From Acanthamoeba sp. SK_2022b (taxonomy: Eukaryota; Discosea; Longamoebia; Acanthamoebidae), in NCBI GenBank assembly GCA_027943245.1, contig JANDJZ010000139.1, positions 35,378 through 99,377 on the forward strand: a stretch of 64,000 nucleotides of DNA, given 5' to 3'. The notes below the pieces were generated by a model. It saw only the letters and a program-made list of their open reading frames with translations. It had not been told where the DNA came from and did no database searches. Of the stretch, positions 20,111 through 28,495 are shown in pieces. The position numbers were made by a program, and so were the translations under genes. Every line of letters begins with the position of its first letter. The first letter of the stretch is position 1.

Positions 20111-22311
20111 ATGAGCGACTTCTCCGCCCTACCCCTTCCTCACTCCCCTGCCCACAGCCATTCTCCTGACGCAGCCCTCCCGGCCGCTGATTGCGCCGAG
20201 GTACGCGCAAACCCTCCCCTCGAAGTGCGGCAATTCCGCTCGTATTGCCGGTCCCGGGCCAGGCGAGCATTGAGGTTGACATGTGTTGTCAGCTCAGTGA
20301 GGTCGCGGTCGCCCCAACTGCCCCCCAGTGGACTCACGGCCCCTCCCTTTCTCGCTCTATGCAGGCGCACGCGGCCGAGACGACGGCCGACAATACCCGC
20401 CGACGCCTCTCGGTTGACTTCCTGCTCAACAACGATGGTCTCAACCTAGCTGCAGCTGCCGCCGCCGCCGCGTCATCCGCGGCTGTTGCCGATCCGACCG
20501 ACTCCGATGACACCGGCCCCGCGGTGGGCAGCACTGCCTCGGCCTCGCCGTCGACCAACACTTCGCCCAGGTCGTCGGGCTCGGCCCACGCCACGCGCCG
20601 CTGCGCCGACGTCCTCGCGGGCGCCACTCAGCAGCTGCCGCCCCTCTCCTCGCTCCTCTCGTCGTCCGCACCGGTCGCCACCACCGCCTCCGCCGCCTCG
20701 GCCCAGCAACGTGCGGTCCACCAGCACCACCACCGGCGGCGATCCTGGTCGACCGGCGGCGTAGTGCGGCCGTCGGCCTACATCCCGCCTCCCATGCCTC
20801 CCCAGAGGCAGGGCAGTGCCTGGGGTGGCGCCAACCCGCCTGAGAGGCGACCGGTCGTGACCCTGGCCACCAGTGGCCCGCTCGCCCGTGGCCCGCCCTC
20901 CGCCGGCGCCCAGGCCCCGTCCCGCTCGCCCTTTTTCCTGCCCATCACCGCCCTGCCTGTGGTGATCGACATTGACCGCGACCTCGAAGCCGCCGAGCTC
21001 CAGCACCTCCAGCGTCAGCGCCAGCAGCAGCTCCACCAGTTCCAGCGCCAGCGGCGCCCCCAGCAACAACAGCAGTTGGCGATGGCGATGATGCAGAAGC
21101 GCAAGTTCGACCGTCTCTCCGAGCTCGACCAGGACGAGGAGGAGGTGGCCCGCATGCTCGCTGACCCCAACCGCTGGGGCGTCACCCCGCGCGACCCTGT
21201 GGCGACCCACAACGTCCAGCGGCAGTCGGCGTTCCCCTCAACGAGGAGGGACGGGATGGTGGTGGCCGAGGCCGAGACCGTCATGAGCCCCGCCGAAGAC
21301 GCCCGACGCATGCAGCAGCACTCGAAGCGTCGCCGGCACAGCGCCGCGCCCACGCTCGTGGCCGAGGCCCAGCGCCTGTTCTCGTCCCACCTGGCCGCCA
21401 CGCCCATCCTGCCCGCCAGCGAGGCCAAGGAACTGGCCGCTGCCAAGTACGGCTCCAGCGCCAACGCCAGCTCCAGCGCCACGACCGGAGCCGTAGCCCC
21501 TGCTCCTGCCCCGGCCGAAGCGGGCGACGCCATGGACGAGGCGCCTACCGTTCCGCAGACGACCCCGGTCGACAAAAATGCGGAAGTAATCACCAATCAC
21601 GACCAAGGCACCGTCGCAAACTGCAACGAGGACAGCAACATGACGACGGCGATAGCGCCGACGTATCGCAAGGCAGAGGCGTTCCAGTTCAGTCCCGACC
21701 AGCAGGACCTCCTCCTGCAGGTGCTCGAGCGAACGCAGCAGAAGGAGGCCCAACGCGGCAGCGAAGCGGGACGCGACCAGCCGAGTGACCGTGGCGACAG
21801 CAGCGGCAGTGGCTCGTCGACCGGCTCGTCGTCCGGCGACGAGGGCGGCGCCAACGAAGAGGACGAGGACGAGATCGGGCGCCTGCAGCGCATGGCCAAG
21901 AAGCGCAAGCGAGTCAACGCCCAGCAGCTGGCCGTGCTCGAGGAGTACTTCGCGGTAGACCCCATGCCCAACACGCTCGTCAAGATCAAGCTGGCCGAGA
22001 CGCTGGGCATGTCGCCCAAGCGCGTCCAGATCTGGTTCCAGAACAAGAGGGCCCGCCTAAAGAAGGGCGAGCAGAAGAAGATGCAGGAGTCGAGCCAGCA
22101 GAGGAACGCGGCCTCGCGCCAGCTGCTGGGCTACCACAACCTCATGATCGACGACAACGGCCACGTCGTGTTCAAGGACGCCCCCGGCGACAGCGGCACT
22201 GGCGGTTCGCAGGAATCTGCTCCGGCAGCGACGGCAGAAACGCAGGACCAGCAACACCAGCAGTTCGTGGCCATCAAGCCCCAGCCCACGACCACCGCTT
22301 CGGCGATGTGA
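20111..22311 (+). CDS. Homeodomain transcription factor
   Basis: Two exons: 20111-20200 (MSDFSALPLPHS...CAE) and 20365-22311, joined by a GTACGC...TATGCAG intron; product about 678 residues. I prefer this start to the downstream ATG at 20191, which lies at the donor and would read through the intron. A long Ala/Ser/Gln/Pro-rich N-terminal region precedes the homeodomain at roughly residues 541-600: KKRKRVNAQQLAVLEEYF, MPNTLVKIKLAETLGM, then SPKRVQIWFQNKRARLKKGE. The recognition helix has the invariant W-F-Q-N-x-R, with Gln at position 50 of the fold. An acidic Ser/Gly stretch just before it resembles an activation segment. The C-terminal tail is Gln/Thr-rich. Expected to be nuclear; target genes unknown. 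A possible AATAAA lies 50 bp after the stop. Confidence 0.92.
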
Positions 22312-22415: not shown

Positions 22416-24191
22416 TTAGCTCAGAAGACAGCCACCCCTGCTTTGTACGGGGGCGGGGGTGCCGCGGATTGCGGCCTTGATGCACTCGTCGAAGAGGAGC
22501 TTGAGATTTTGCTGCTCGAGCGACGAATACGAGATGAAGCCCGCCGCGCCCAGCTCTCGCGCCAGGTTGATCCCCTGCCCCAACACACAAATGCACGTGA
22601 TTGGATGATTGCACAGGCCAATCAAAAAATAAAATAAAATCAAGAATAAGCAAAGGTTATCCGTTTAAAAAAGTGTAGAGATGCACCTCTTGGTGGGTGA
22701 CCGGCGGCATCCTCTGTTCGGCCAGCCTCTTGAGAACGGTTCTGCTGTTGTCTGTGTCGCCCGACAGCAAGTCGAGCTTGGTCCCGGCAATAATGAACGG
22801 GGTGCCGGGGCAATGGTGCGTGATCTCGGGCACCCACTGTCCACCACATCCACAAAAAATGAGACAAAAAAAATTATTGAATACTTGATAGATAAAAAAA
22901 ATTATAATTACACTCACCTTGGACTTGACGTTTTCAAACGAAGCTCTGTTTACGAGACTGAAGCACACAAGGAACACGTCCGTTTGCGGATAGCTGAGAG
23001 GCCTCAACCTGTCGTAATCCTGTCCCGAATAAATGCAACCGCGTGAGCCAGTCTGGCAGTGCACCTCCCCGTGTGCGCAGAAAAGCAGAGAGAAAGCCGC
23101 ACCTCGGGCCCCGCCGTGTCCCACAGCCCCAAGTTGATGGGGACCCCGTGCACCATGATGTTGGCAGAGTAGTTGTCTGGGAGAGCCATCGCCACCGCCA
23201 GGTCAGACAAGTCAGGGGCGTACAAACGAGGAAAAATCAAAGCAATCCGCAGCGGCGCGGTGATACCGAACACGGTCGGGATGTACTCGCCGGGGAACGC
23301 ATTCGTGGTGTAGGTGATCATGGTGCAGGTCTTGCCCACGGCGCCGTCGCCCTGTTGCAAGCCGTCGTTCGTTGGTGAGATGATGCGGAGGACCGCCCAC
23401 CTCTCATCGCGTGGGTGGGTGGGCCGTACAACGACTACGAGCTTGATGTTGACCATGGCGCCTCCGGTCTGCTTGTAGGCGAAGAGAGACCCAGTGAGCA
23501 TGCTCCTGCGCGCGTGCTTCTCGTAGTCGGCCCGCACGTTGCCGAGCTTCTCCTTGAGGTCTCTCCTTTCCTGTTTGTGCGGTCGCGCAGAGAACAGCAA
23601 GCGTGTCGACACGCTCAGCTCGCTCACAGCGCGCAAAACATGCACACGCACGCGCACGCACGCATCGGCAAAGCAGGAGGTGGAGGAGTCCACACGTACG
23701 TGAGCCTCCTCGACCAGTACACGGCGCACGCCTCCGGGCACGTCGCGGAACTGGTGCCAGTTCCTCCAGGCCATCTCGGGAAGCGATCGTAGGGCGTCTT
23801 CCCACAGGCTGTTCTCCAGCGTGATCATCATGTTCCACCTGATGGTTTTTAAAATAACAAAAATAAAATAAATTAAAAAACAATCAACCCACAATCTCAG
23901 AGAAAAATAAAATCAAATTAAATTAAAAATCAAGTCAATAACGCTTGAGGAAAACTCATACCTTCTACAGGCGCAAGCAGCCTGACACAGGGCGATGACG
24001 TCGTTGCGGAGATAGGAGAAGATCAGGAGCAGCACTTCGTCGGGAACCAGCGCTTCCAGATCGGGACCGGATTGGGCTTGCTTGGCCTTCTTGCCTCCCT
24101 TGGCCTTCTTTCCGGTGGCCACCTCCGGCTGCGGCACCACCACTGGCAGTGCCCACAAAAAGGCCCATCAGTCCTGCGTGCCTACATGCGC

Positions 24192-24288
<97 letters not shown>

Positions 24289-26195
24289 GTCGTCAATAGA
24301 CTATGGATATGTACGGTATTTGGGGTCGTCGAAATACTGGGAGGCGCCGTCGCGACCGCCGAAGGTCAACAGAGTCAGCTCGTCGATCCACGTCGCCGCG
24401 TGGAACACCGTGCCGCGCGGCGCAGTTCCTTGCACCTGCCACTTCTTCCACCTCTTCGTCTCTGATGTTTCCGTTATGCGGAGGAGTAGAGCCACACATG
24501 GTGAGGTGACGAGCGAGAGGAGCACATGTGTGTGTGTGTGTTGCGTGTGTGTGCGCGCGCAAATGGAATCGCGACGAATACCGAAATGGAATTGCCAGAA
24601 ATCGGGGAAGGTGACGTGCTTGTCGAAGCCGCCCATCACCACCATGCTCTCGCCTAGGGCGTCGCACAGCGCCACGTGGCCATACCTCGCGTCCGGCCTC
24701 GGTCCGGATACGATCGGCGCCGCCTTGCTGCCACCGCCGCCCTTACCGGTGGACTCGGTGCTCTGTTTGTCGTCACCGGCCAGCTGCTCCCACTTGCCCT
24801 CCTCTGCCAAACGCGAGACTCGGTGAGCGAGGAGAAAAAGAGGTGCAGAGAGCGGCGGCACACGCAACTGAAGTCGAAGCTCCACAGGTCGGCCATGACG
24901 GCGTTCTTGTCGCCCTGTCCTCCGAACACGAACATGCGATCGTGCGCGCGGCTGTACACCGCCGAATGCTGGAACCGCGCCGCCGGCGCCGGCTTGTTCT
25001 TCTTGCACTCGAACCTCTTCCACTCCTTGTTCACTGCGCATCACGCCCGCACCGACGCGCGCTCAGTGTGAGACAGTGGACAATGCGTGGCCCATGGCTC
25101 CTCCTCCTCCTCCCTCTCCTCGGTGACGTACGGAAGTGGAAGGACCACAGGTCGGAGCAGGTCCACGAATCGCTGTCGAATCCACCAAAGACCCACATCT
25201 CGTCGCCGCGCACCACGGCGCTGTGGCCGTAGCGCTTGGCCGGCGGCCGGTTGGCCGGATCGGCCGGCTTCACCTCCTCCCACGCGTTGGCCTCTGTTGC
25301 GACAACCAATGGCGATCGCCTTGCTCTCGTCAGCAGGTTGCGGGCCTCCTGAGCGAGTGTTCGCGTGTGGTGTGTGCGTGCGGTGTGTGCGTGCGTGCGT
25401 GTGCATGTTTGCGTGTGTGACGGACCGGGATCGAATTGCCAGAGGTCGTTGAGGTAGCCGTTGCTCTTGCCTCCAAACACGAACATCCTGCCGGCAGGGG
25501 CGGCGTTGCTGACGTCATCATTTTCTTCTTCGTCCTCACCCTTTTCGCGGTCGTCATCCTCCACGGGTGCCTCGTGCTCGCACTTGTCCTTGCCCTTGTC
25601 CGCGGTCGTCTTCTTAGTGGCCTTCTTCTCCTTCTTTGTCTTCTTCTTTGTCTGGTCCTTCTTGTCCTTGTCTTGGCCGTCGGCCGACGACGGCGCGGGC
25701 CACACGACGGCAGTGTGGAAATGGCGCTTGATGGGCATGGCCGCGGCGGCGCCCTGCTGCTGGCCGGCGGGAGGCGCGTCGTCGTCGGGCCCGCCCTCCT
25801 GCAGCACGCGCCAGCGCTTGTCGTGCCACGAGAGCGCAAACACCTCGTTGGAGAACTCGACCTGGTTGGACCCGCCAAAGAGCAGCACCGTCGTCGCAGT
25901 CGTGTGTGCGTTGCTGGGAGCGGGGATGGCGACAAGCGAGTGGCCGTAGCGGGCGGGCGGCGCCTCGCCACCGGCCGCCAGTTGGTTCCAATTCGTGCGC
26001 CCCGCCAACTCCCGCCCTGCAAAACGCCAAAAATTTTATTAAAATAGCAAATTAATGTTGCAACAAATTGGAAATATATATATATATATATACCTATAAT
26101 GAACCTAATTTTCTTTTAAAAGAAAAATAAAGAGTGCATTAACTTTACGTACTGGGTTTGGGAGTTTCTCTCTTCTTCTTCCCAAAGCCTAGCAT
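22416..26195 (-). CDS. Kelch-repeat + F-box + Rac-type GTPase fusion protein
   Basis: Read as one gene of about 14 exons and 800 residues. Exon 1 (26153-26195, [14 protein letters not shown]) splices to 26016. Six kelch blades follow, with [79 protein letters not shown] and [14 protein letters not shown]. The intron 24307-24137 joins the last blade to the F-box in frame ([22 protein letters not shown]). A linker helix leads to a Rac module: [58 protein letters not shown] and SSL. The end is CLLS, a CAAX box, with TAG-free stop at 22416. The catalytic Gln61 position is Pro and the usual C-terminal polybasic stretch is missing. It would couple a Rho-family switch to an SCF ubiquitin ligase. Alternative: two genes splitting at the TAG at 24301, but only about 140 bp, nearly all microsatellite, would then separate them. 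Confidence 0.78.
24193..24289 (+). repeat. (GT)n/(GTGC)n microsatellite between kelch and F-box exons
   Basis: About 30 GT units followed by seven GTGC units. On the gene's sense strand it is (GCAC)n then (CA)n, inside the intron that joins kelch and F-box parts. Confidence 0.95.
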
Positions 26196-26545: not shown

Positions 26546-27677
26546 TTAGGTGTTGGGCGGAAAGAGGCGCCAGAACTTCTCGATCACGGTGCCGTCCTTC
26601 TTCGTGAGCACACCGCCAAACGGGCAGTTGAACTTCCACACACCCTGTTCAGCAACACAACACGGGCAGGGTGAGGAGTGGCGCATGTTGGTCGACCACA
26701 CGCGCAAATGAATCGACAGATGGCTTGGGCGCGTGGGTTTGCAGACCTGGTACATCTCGCCGTCGTTCTTGACGAGCTTGCCCCAGCCGTCCCGCATTCC
26801 GTTGCGCCATTGGCCCGTATACACGCCGCCCATCATCGTGCTGTACGTGTACGTGCCCTCGCCGTGCCTCTTCCCGTCCTGCATACCACAAATCGTCAGC
26901 CGCTACACACAACTCGTACACACACCACTCTCTCTCTCTCTCCCCCCCCCTCTCGTACACACTAACCAAACGAAAGAATAGGCGCACCTTGTACTCGCCC
27001 ACGTAGACCGACCCGTCGGGCCAGCAGAAGGTGCCCTTGCCCGACATCTTTCCGTCCTTGTACTCTCCCTCGTATCTGCGCCAGTTATTAAAAAACATAA
27101 ATATAATAATATAAAAGCATAAAGAAATAAAATAATAAAATAATAAATAAATGTAAGGTGGAGAGGGAGAGAGACCTGCGCCCGTCGGGCCAGACCACGC
27201 TGCCAAACCCCTCGCGCTTGCCCTCCTTCCACTGGCCCTCGTACTTGGTCCCGTCGGCCCAGATATAGATGCCCTCCCCGTGTCGCTGGTCCTCCTTCCA
27301 GTTGCCCGCGTAGAGATCGCCCCCGTTCTTGGCGTAGTTGATCGGCCACCGGAAGATGCCAAAGCCCGAGCGCATGTCGTTCTCCCACTCGCCGTCGTAT
27401 CGCCTGCCGTCCTGCATGAGCCCCGTCCCTGTCACAATTGGGCGTGTCGTGCCGTGTCGGTAAGAGAGAGTGAACAACAGGCAAGAGGGGGGAGAGGGGG
27501 GAGAGAGAGAAGGCCTACCGACGCCGTGGCGTTTGTTGTCCTTCCACTCGCCCTCGTACATGTCGCCGTGCTCGCTGCCGCACGACCCCTTCCCGTTCTT
27601 CACGTCGCCTGCCCGGAACACGCGCTGTCGACGTCGAGTGGAGGAGGGGGAGAATCGCGTCAGGCCATCTCACAAGC

Positions 27678-27742
<65 letters not shown>

Positions 27743-27927
27743 TGTGTGCGATGTGGTGAGCGCAAGGAGGAGCACCTTCTTGCACTCAAAGAGCCATTTG
27801 AATGACTTGTGGCTGGGCTTCTGCATGTACACGCCTTCGATGTCCCACGTCCTCTCCACGATGTTCTTCCACAGATGTGCGTCGTTGGACAGCGCGGAGA
27901 ACATCGAGCACACCTGCGCGGGCATTC

Positions 27928-27985
<58 letters not shown>

Positions 27986-28394
27986 GAGTTTCGCGATAAC
28001 GATCAGAGCGAGAGAGAGAGAGAGAGAGCGAGCGAGACAATGCGCCGTACGTCGGCGCTGAGCAGGAGGTCCTTGCCGTCGAGGTAGCCAAAGATGTGCA
28101 GAACGAGCTCCATGGGCAACACGCCAAAGTAGCCGAGGTTGGTCTGCACGGGCCGGTCCAAGTGCTGCGTGCATATGAGATGAGAGATGAGATGAAATGA
28201 GAGATTGCGTAATGGGTGAGTGGCCCGTTCATGCGATCGCGCCACAGTACCAGCACGAATTCGAGGTATCGTCGTCGGCCGAGGATCTGGTCGTTGAGCT
28301 CGGTCACGCTGCGGTCGATGCCCGTCGTCAGCTTGCCCAGGTCGAGGTTGTAGTGGAACCGATGATTGCGCAGCGAGCGACCCACGTCCTGCAT
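26546..28394 (-). CDS. F-box and MORN-repeat protein
   Basis: Predicted SCF substrate receptor with membrane- or cytoskeleton-associated MORN repeats. ATG at 28392-28394 (MQDVGRSLRNHRFHYNLDLG). Exons run down to the stop at 26546 (FWRLFPPNT). The F-box reads YFGVLPMELVLHIFGYLDGKDLL with the continuation ALSNDAHLWKNIVERTW. At least seven MORN units follow, each about 23 residues: GDMYEGEWKDNKRHGVG, RRYDGEWENDMRSGFG, GDLYAGNWKEDQRHGEG, TKYEGQWKEGKREGFG, YEGEYKDGKMSGKG, GVYTGQWRNGMRDGWG and a final degenerate one. Two long dinucleotide repeats of opposite sense lie in its introns. It is tandem with the kelch-F-box-Rac gene about 350 bp downstream, so two F-box genes adjoin. Sub-unit partners and substrates are unknown. 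Confidence 0.88.
27680..27741 (+). repeat. (GT)n microsatellite in F-box/MORN intron
   Basis: (CA)n on the gene's sense strand, between the FECKK and RVFRAGD exons. Confidence 0.95.
27929..27982 (+). repeat. (CA)n microsatellite in F-box/MORN intron
   Basis: (TG)n on the gene's sense strand, in the intron after the F-box exon; opposite in sense to the neighbour at 27680. Confidence 0.95.
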
Positions 28395-28495
28395 GCTCCT
28401 GTTGTTATGAAGTTGTGTTGTGTTGTGTGGTTGATGACGACGACGACGACGACGACGAATGACGATGATTGGGTTAGTTGAGTGCGCGCGAGCTA

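Follow-up and report, generated by a model that had tools for sequence, protein, structure and literature searches.

Kelch, F-box and Rho GTPase domains joined in one Acanthamoeba gene, a member of a Kelch-Rho protein family

In the F-box-Kelch receptor FBXO42, the F-box precedes the Kelch domain. LZTR1, a receptor for GDP-bound Ras proteins, has BTB-BACK domains and no GTPase domain of its own. RhoBTB proteins are presented as Rho plus BTB in the sections of two reviews that were compared here (PMC4931677, PMC8305917). Here, we describe a gene of Acanthamoeba sp. SK_2022b in which a Kelch propeller, an F-box and a Rac-like Rho domain share one reading frame. The gene lies on the minus strand of a stretch of 64,000 nucleotides (contig JANDJZ010000139.1, positions 35,378 to 99,377, of assembly GCA_027943245.1), hereafter called the window. 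Its spliced model runs from the ATG at 26195 to the TAA at 22416 as a single frame of 786 amino acids (aa) in 14 exons, and all 13 introns are GT..AG. The encoded window protein consists of six Kelch blades, the F-box, a linker, the Rac-like G domain and a CLLS end, the Rho domain being C-terminal.

The junction between the Kelch part and the F-box, at intron 6, was contested. The original prediction had placed all three parts in one gene and one orientation, linked by an intron GTACAT...TGCCAG at 24307-24137 that keeps phase 1 and the reading frame. The phase and the frame were retained in our model, and the coordinates were corrected to 24314-24143. If this intron is left unspliced, the Kelch frame ends KYRTYP* at the TAG at 24301, as had been foreseen. 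Phase 1 was found in intron 6 and in all five introns preceding it. By eye, a long CA-rich repeat is present at 24190-24290 in intron 6, and shorter ones are present in introns 2 and 5. No ATG occurs in the F-box frame from the TGA at 24170 to the F-box; an F-box-Rac gene standing on its own would therefore require an extra exon. The database protein P0001 is encoded by one open reading frame (ORF) of 742 aa on a contig of 2461 bases, which leaves no room for introns of the kind seen in the window gene. It is 66% identical to the window protein over 95% of the latter, and the spliced frame is therefore not a product of chance. P0001 is identical to the window protein at 9 of the 12 residues that flank the contested junction. 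The same domain order was also observed in P0008 (37% identity over 77%), a TRINITY transcript whose ORF is marked complete. From these sequence comparisons, we conclude that the Kelch, F-box and Rho parts belong to one gene and not to two, as first proposed.

The domain assignments were assessed with Pfam, solved structures and structure models. The Kelch part matched PF24681 with 208 bits (cut-off 50) and PF24981 with 155.3 bits, and the six blades of the original prediction were recognisable by eye. The F-box was likewise recovered, matching the F-box-like profile PF12937 with 40.7 bits (cut-off 24.3), and the G domain matched the Ras profile PF00071 with 143.5 bits (cut-off 21.6). Neither BTB nor BACK domains were found by Pfam in the window protein. 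The nearest solved propeller by sequence was that of LZTR1. In the structure model of P0001, the propeller matched solved propellers over residues 1-409, and LZTR1 was tied with KLHDC3 as the nearest by structure. The structure match lists were dominated by Kelch and Rac chains, and the best-matching chains for the window G domain were those of Rac1. The Rho insert between G4 and G5 is present, as the Rac1 alignment covers it, and is five residues longer than that of Rac1. A full Rac-like G domain with a CAAX box had been predicted. G1, a Rac-like switch I, G4, G5 and the CAAX-type end CLLS were all found, with Gly12, Lys16, Thr17, Thr35, Asp57, TKxD and SSL conserved, but Gln61 was not. Identity to P0001 was highest in the G domain (76.4%), followed by the F-box (71.1%), the Kelch part (70.4%) and the linker between the F-box and the G domain (55.9%).

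Relatives were collected in three protein searches, from which the best 120 of 234, of 7962 and of 199 matches, respectively, were considered. At least 17 proteins that combine Kelch and Rho were identified, 16 from the first search and one (P0238) from the third, which was dominated by other Kelch proteins; all these counts are lower bounds. The order Kelch-(F-box)-Rho was found in at least ten relatives among the matches listed: P0001, P0008, P0016 (Balamuthia), P0017, P0091, P0019 and P0103 (Naegleria lovaniensis), P0041 (N. fowleri), and P0036 and P0066 (Willaertia). These Kelch-first relatives are 28-68% identical overall and carry generic database names ('hypothetical protein', 'RhoG-like'); the UniRef name of P0041 is 'F-box domain-containing protein'. 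The F-box was above the Pfam cut-off or precomputed in seven of the ten (P0001, P0008, P0016, P0017, P0019, P0091 and P0103). At least two further proteins, P0012 and P0015, have the order Rho-Kelch-F-box, and at least five are RhoBTB-like with Kelch (P0006, P0007, P0009, P0011 of Arcella, and P0238). A BTB domain was detected by Pfam in four of these five; P0011, without a Pfam BTB match, was included on account of its UniRef name and of inspection by eye. The propeller of P0238 comes after its best BTB match, which spans profile positions 5-45 of 110. The Kelch part thus lies roughly at the site of the large insertion in BTB1 of human RhoBTB2 (PMC1257465). The same place in BTB1 was assigned by eye in the other four RhoBTB-like proteins.

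Two shared sequence features were examined. A Cys-x-x-x end is present in nine of the 11 proteins with the Kelch-F-box-Rho order, the window protein included. A motif like GGKSNGY, a pattern selected after the sequences had been inspected, occurs in 17 of the 18 Kelch-Rho proteins, again with the window protein included, and in 2 of 118 Rho-less Kelch proteins among the matches listed, P0243 (Balamuthia) and P0244. The propellers bearing this motif align in register. P0243 and P0244, Kelch-BTB proteins that lack Rho and share the blade motif, may be the nearest non-GTPase kin of the family. We regard the window gene as a member of an old Kelch-Rho family that is apparently undescribed.

The genome (44.9 Mb in 1129 contigs) encodes an actophorin that agrees with the solved actophorin, an Acanthamoeba protein, at 133 of 137 residues, which places it in Acanthamoeba. 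It was searched with the whole Kelch-F-box-Rho protein. Two weak Kelch matches, one on C888 (E 7e-8) and one on C277 (E 2e-5), were obtained outside the exons of the gene itself, and all other matches there were confined to residues from 560 onwards, in the Rho part; the gene is accordingly taken to be single-copy. A candidate paralogue on C829 was rejected, as it consists of Rho pieces alone, and inspection of three frames by eye revealed no F-box. No Acanthamoeba was found among the source names of the listed matches, about three quarters of which are nameless, long names being cut. The protein P0128 (jgi, 356 aa) is an F-box-Rho protein without Kelch that starts with MLRFGTKK, like exon 1; its P-loop is altered, its G3 reads PPE and its C-terminus is odd. 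In the window gene, too, exon 1 can be joined to exon 7 in phase 1 and in frame, which would give 357 aa, and the Kelch part could be skipped by such splicing.

The residue corresponding to Gln61 (Rac1 numbering) is Pro in the window protein, encoded by CCC. Among the 17 Kelch-Rho relatives, this residue is Pro in 12, Gly in two, Glu in one, Arg in one and Gln in one; in P0008, an inserted residue blurs the exact column. The ten Kelch-first relatives were taken from gapped alignment rows with gaps written as X, and their letters at position 61 agreed with those in a second alignment. Gln61 was conserved in the controls: in all 20 RhoBTB proteins without Kelch, in 81 of 84 other proteins of the 120 listed in the first search, and, among the matches listed in the second search (P0128 excluded), in 114 of 116 additional proteins. 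The Fisher value for the loss was 1.3e-9, which is descriptive and ignores the relatedness of the sequences. The Rho-family switch of the original prediction was not upheld as a normal switch, as Gln61 is absent from the window protein and from 16 of the 17 relatives. For a change at this position, we apply the figure of about eightfold slower hydrolysis that Der et al. are said to have obtained in 1986. Slow GTP hydrolysis with GTP binding retained is thus our expectation for the window protein.

As to function, we tentatively favour, with a confidence just short of even, a membrane-anchored substrate receptor of the SKP1-CUL1-F-box (SCF) type, with a slowly hydrolysing Rho domain that acts mainly as a tether. 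The fusion of a Rho domain to an apparent SCF substrate receptor had been proposed before, and F-box, Kelch propeller and Rho in one frame agree with it, the function being a prediction. Judging from domain identity, the Kelch propeller would select the substrate and the F-box would dock on SKP1-CUL1. The Rac-like domain, prenylated at its C-terminus, would put the ligase at membranes and near Rac effectors; this address and these contacts are predicted from the CLLS end, from nucleotide boxes that have stayed intact and from the loss of Gln61. Because Gln61 is replaced by Pro, hydrolysis would be slow, and a Rho domain with long-lived GTP would serve as a tether rather than as a fast switch driven by GTPase-activating proteins. 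Control might then come from turnover or localisation. SKP1 binding, ubiquitin transfer, prenylation, the nucleotide state and the membrane site are all predicted here from the sequence.

Several observations weigh against this membrane-tethered receptor. The older F-box model PF00646 gave 14.9 bits, under its cut-off of 20.5, solved F-boxes matched weakly (best E 0.014), and in P0036, P0041 and P0066 the F-box was assigned by alignment alone. P0041 and P0091 have no Cys-x-x-x end, and P0091, whose sequence is short at its end, keeps Gln61. The two structure models had predicted template modelling scores (pTM) of 0.55 and 0.57, too low for a conclusion on domain packing. HRAS Q61P failed to transform and was biologically like the wild type in the portion of PMC6813200 compared, and a strongly GTP-locked state is disfavoured for this reason. 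A chance F-box was also considered and judged unlikely, as seven of the ten relatives have an F-box in the corresponding position, either precomputed or scoring above a Pfam cut-off.

The alternative that fares best, though we consider it rather unlikely, is that the propeller reads Rho GTPases, as the LZTR1 propeller does GDP-bound Ras. The fused Rho domain would then be a ligand in cis, serving as a brake or pseudo-substrate, and other Rho GTPases would be the substrates. An ordinary cycling Rho switch that toggles an SCF receptor is a little more doubtful still. The nucleotide-binding boxes and both switches are Rac-like except at position 61, and the reported wild-type-like biology of HRAS Q61P, in the portion of that paper compared (PMC6813200), would suit it, but Pro at position 61 in the window protein and the absence of Gln from 16 of 17 relatives speak against it. 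We think it improbable that nucleotide binding has been lost and the G domain persists as a passive remnant: the catalytic Gln is missing in most family members found and P0128 is altered further in G1 and G3, but the window protein retains the P-loop, Thr17, Thr35, Asp57, TKxD and SSL, and no other part of it is as well conserved relative to P0001 as the G domain. Two adjacent genes, of which the Kelch gene would stop at the TAG at 24301 and the F-box-Rac gene would begin near 24158, are very improbable, since the in-frame TAG directly past the donor, the long CA-rich repeat in the intron and the Kelch-less P0128 are set against an F-box frame with no ATG of its own, an intron phase identical to that of the five preceding introns, relatives (P0001 and others) that read through the junction, and the start of P0128 itself, which resembles exon 1 as though spliced directly to the F-box exon.

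The history of the cullin adaptor was examined with trees. In a G-domain tree built with position 61 removed, the window protein was grouped with P0001, P0008 (F-box), P0011 (BTB form) and P0128 (support 100/96), and three BTB forms were joined by the F-box form P0012 (95/86). Elsewhere in the tree, at weak support (74/78), stood the proteins of Naegleria and Willaertia together with P0017; separate origins are possible, because these G domains fall apart from the window group. A second G-domain tree was built under the simpler model LG+G4 with 59 rows, P0091, P0016, P0017 and P0238 being left out. None of the groupings tested on it was rejected: all 15 Kelch-Rho rows together (p 0.31), the 11 F-box rows together (p 0.083), the four BTB rows together (p 0.077), and the window protein with P0001, P0008 and P0128 but without P0011 (p 0.51). 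In a propeller tree, the five BTB forms were grouped (99/97), the centre of the tree was not resolved, and the rows nearest to the window protein after P0001 were P0008 and the Rho-less P0244; the separate group of BTB propellers and the position of P0244 near the window protein speak against a single history. Our reading is that the adaptor may have been exchanged between F-box (CUL1) and BTB (CUL3) around a kept propeller and Rho domain, once or several times and in either direction. More speculatively, and in our judgement unlikely, the proteins could form an ancient, undescribed family of Kelch-Rho ligases. One chain would keep a propeller that reads GTPases in the manner of LZTR1 together with a Rho domain impaired in hydrolysis, while the adaptor between or around them was swapped (F-box/CUL1 in some lineages, a split BTB/CUL3 in others). 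The ligase would then be self-gated, with its own Rho domain as the ligand of the propeller.

Table 1 Features of the Kelch-F-box-Rho gene, in window positions
Feature	Positions	Strand	Basis
Whole gene, Kelch-F-box-Rho, 786 aa, 14 exons	22416..26195	-	spliced translation; homology to P0001
Exon 1, ends in phase 1	26153..26195	-	gene model; N-terminus of P0128 alike; P0001 falls short of exon 1
Exon 2, Kelch blades 1-2	25426..26016	-	gene model, Pfam
Exon 2, additional: Lys-rich insert of ~70 aa; family motif GGKSNGY (aa 196-202)	25426..26016	-	
Exon 3, Kelch blade 3	25132..25293	-	gene model, Pfam
Exon 4, Kelch blade 4	24869..25033	-	gene model, Pfam
Exon 5, Kelch blade 5	24582..24803	-	gene model, Pfam
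Exon 6, Kelch blade 6 (assigned by eye)	24315..24461	-	gene model
Intron 6 (contested), 172 nt, GTACAT..TGCCAG, phase 1	24143..24314	-	gene model; junction alignment to P0001
Intron 6 contents: in-frame TAG at 24301, CA-rich repeat	24143..24314	-	sequence
Exon 7, most of F-box (aa 476-518, including start of exon 8)	23962..24142	-	Pfam
Exon 8, end of F-box and linker	23700..23838	-	gene model; linker helical in P0001 model
Exon 9, linker and first strand of G domain, ending NIKLVVV	23430..23570	-	gene model; P0001 model
Exon 10, G1 GDGAVGKT and switch I (YIPTVF)	23267..23351	-	gene model, residue comparison
Exon 11, NYSANI..DTAGPE, G3 box; Gln61 position is Pro (CCC, 23108-23106)	23103..23176	-	
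Exon 12, remainder of switch II	22918..23019	-	gene model
Exon 13, G4 TKLD and Rho insert region	22687..22836	-	gene model, Rac1 alignment, residue comparison
Exon 14, G5 (SSL), C-terminal tail, CAAX-type end CLLS	22416..22574	-	gene model, residue comparison

Neighbouring and related loci were also noted. The next gene upstream, on the minus strand of the window (26546-28404), appears by eye to combine an F-box-like stretch (VLPMELVLHIFGYL) and MORN-like repeats. Tail to tail with the gene, a long plus-strand ORF (20191-22311) contains a homeodomain-like stretch (KRVQIWFQNKRARLKKG), also by eye. Elsewhere in the genome, on the minus strand of G000:C265:78200-83700, matching pieces (not a gene model) indicate an ordinary RhoBTB-like gene with DTAGQED and Ser17, in which a U-box lies between the BTB pieces; U-boxes also occur inside the database RhoBTB proteins P0101 (Arcella) and P0069. 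In contrast, the portion of a published survey compared here (PMC8305917) gives five Rho GTPases for A. castellanii, of Rac and Cdc42 types alone, and lists no RhoBTB. The words 'kelch', 'U-box' and 'F-box' appear nowhere in the main text of that survey.

No description of the Kelch-F-box-Rho architecture was found in the portions of the open-licence literature compared; PMC8296547, PMC7285305 and PMC1257465 looked close, and the architecture is not described in the portions of them compared. PMC4931677 cites unpublished work on RhoBTB evolution as well as a chapter from 2012 in which Elias and Klimes treat the evolution of Rho proteins; both lie outside the comparison, and the Kelch-Rho architecture may already have been mentioned. 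The original remark that no such protein had been described thus agrees with these open-licence papers, but not with the databases, which hold the architecture in Balamuthia, Naegleria, Willaertia and others.

These results suggest that the combination of Rho and a cullin adaptor recurs here with a different adaptor and next to a propeller of one common kind, and that in nearly every case found the residue on which normal GTP hydrolysis depends is missing. Comparison of the versions points to the kept parts, the propeller and the nucleotide-binding Rho domain, as the likely core, and to the F-box or BTB as exchangeable. The near-universal loss of Gln61 and the alternation of F-box and BTB are the most surprising features.

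Among known systems, RhoBTB proteins (Dictyostelium RacA and animal RhoBTB1-3) likewise carry a Rho domain and a cullin adaptor in one chain. They have an N-terminal Rho domain, two BTB domains and CUL3 as partner, whereas the window protein has a C-terminal Rho domain, an F-box, for which CUL1 is expected, and Pro in place of Gln61. The 20 Kelch-free RhoBTB proteins examined keep Gln61 and have Ser17, in contrast to Pro61 and Thr17 of the window protein. The parallel to RhoBTB drawn in the original prediction is extended by the five RhoBTB-like relatives, whose propeller is of the kind found in the window protein. A GTPase domain, present in the window protein, is lacking in F-box-Kelch receptors such as FBXO42. 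LZTR1 resembles the window protein in that an N-terminal propeller is followed by a cullin adaptor, and its propeller binds Ras GTPases; LZTR1 works with CUL3, whereas the window protein has an F-box and a GTPase of its own.
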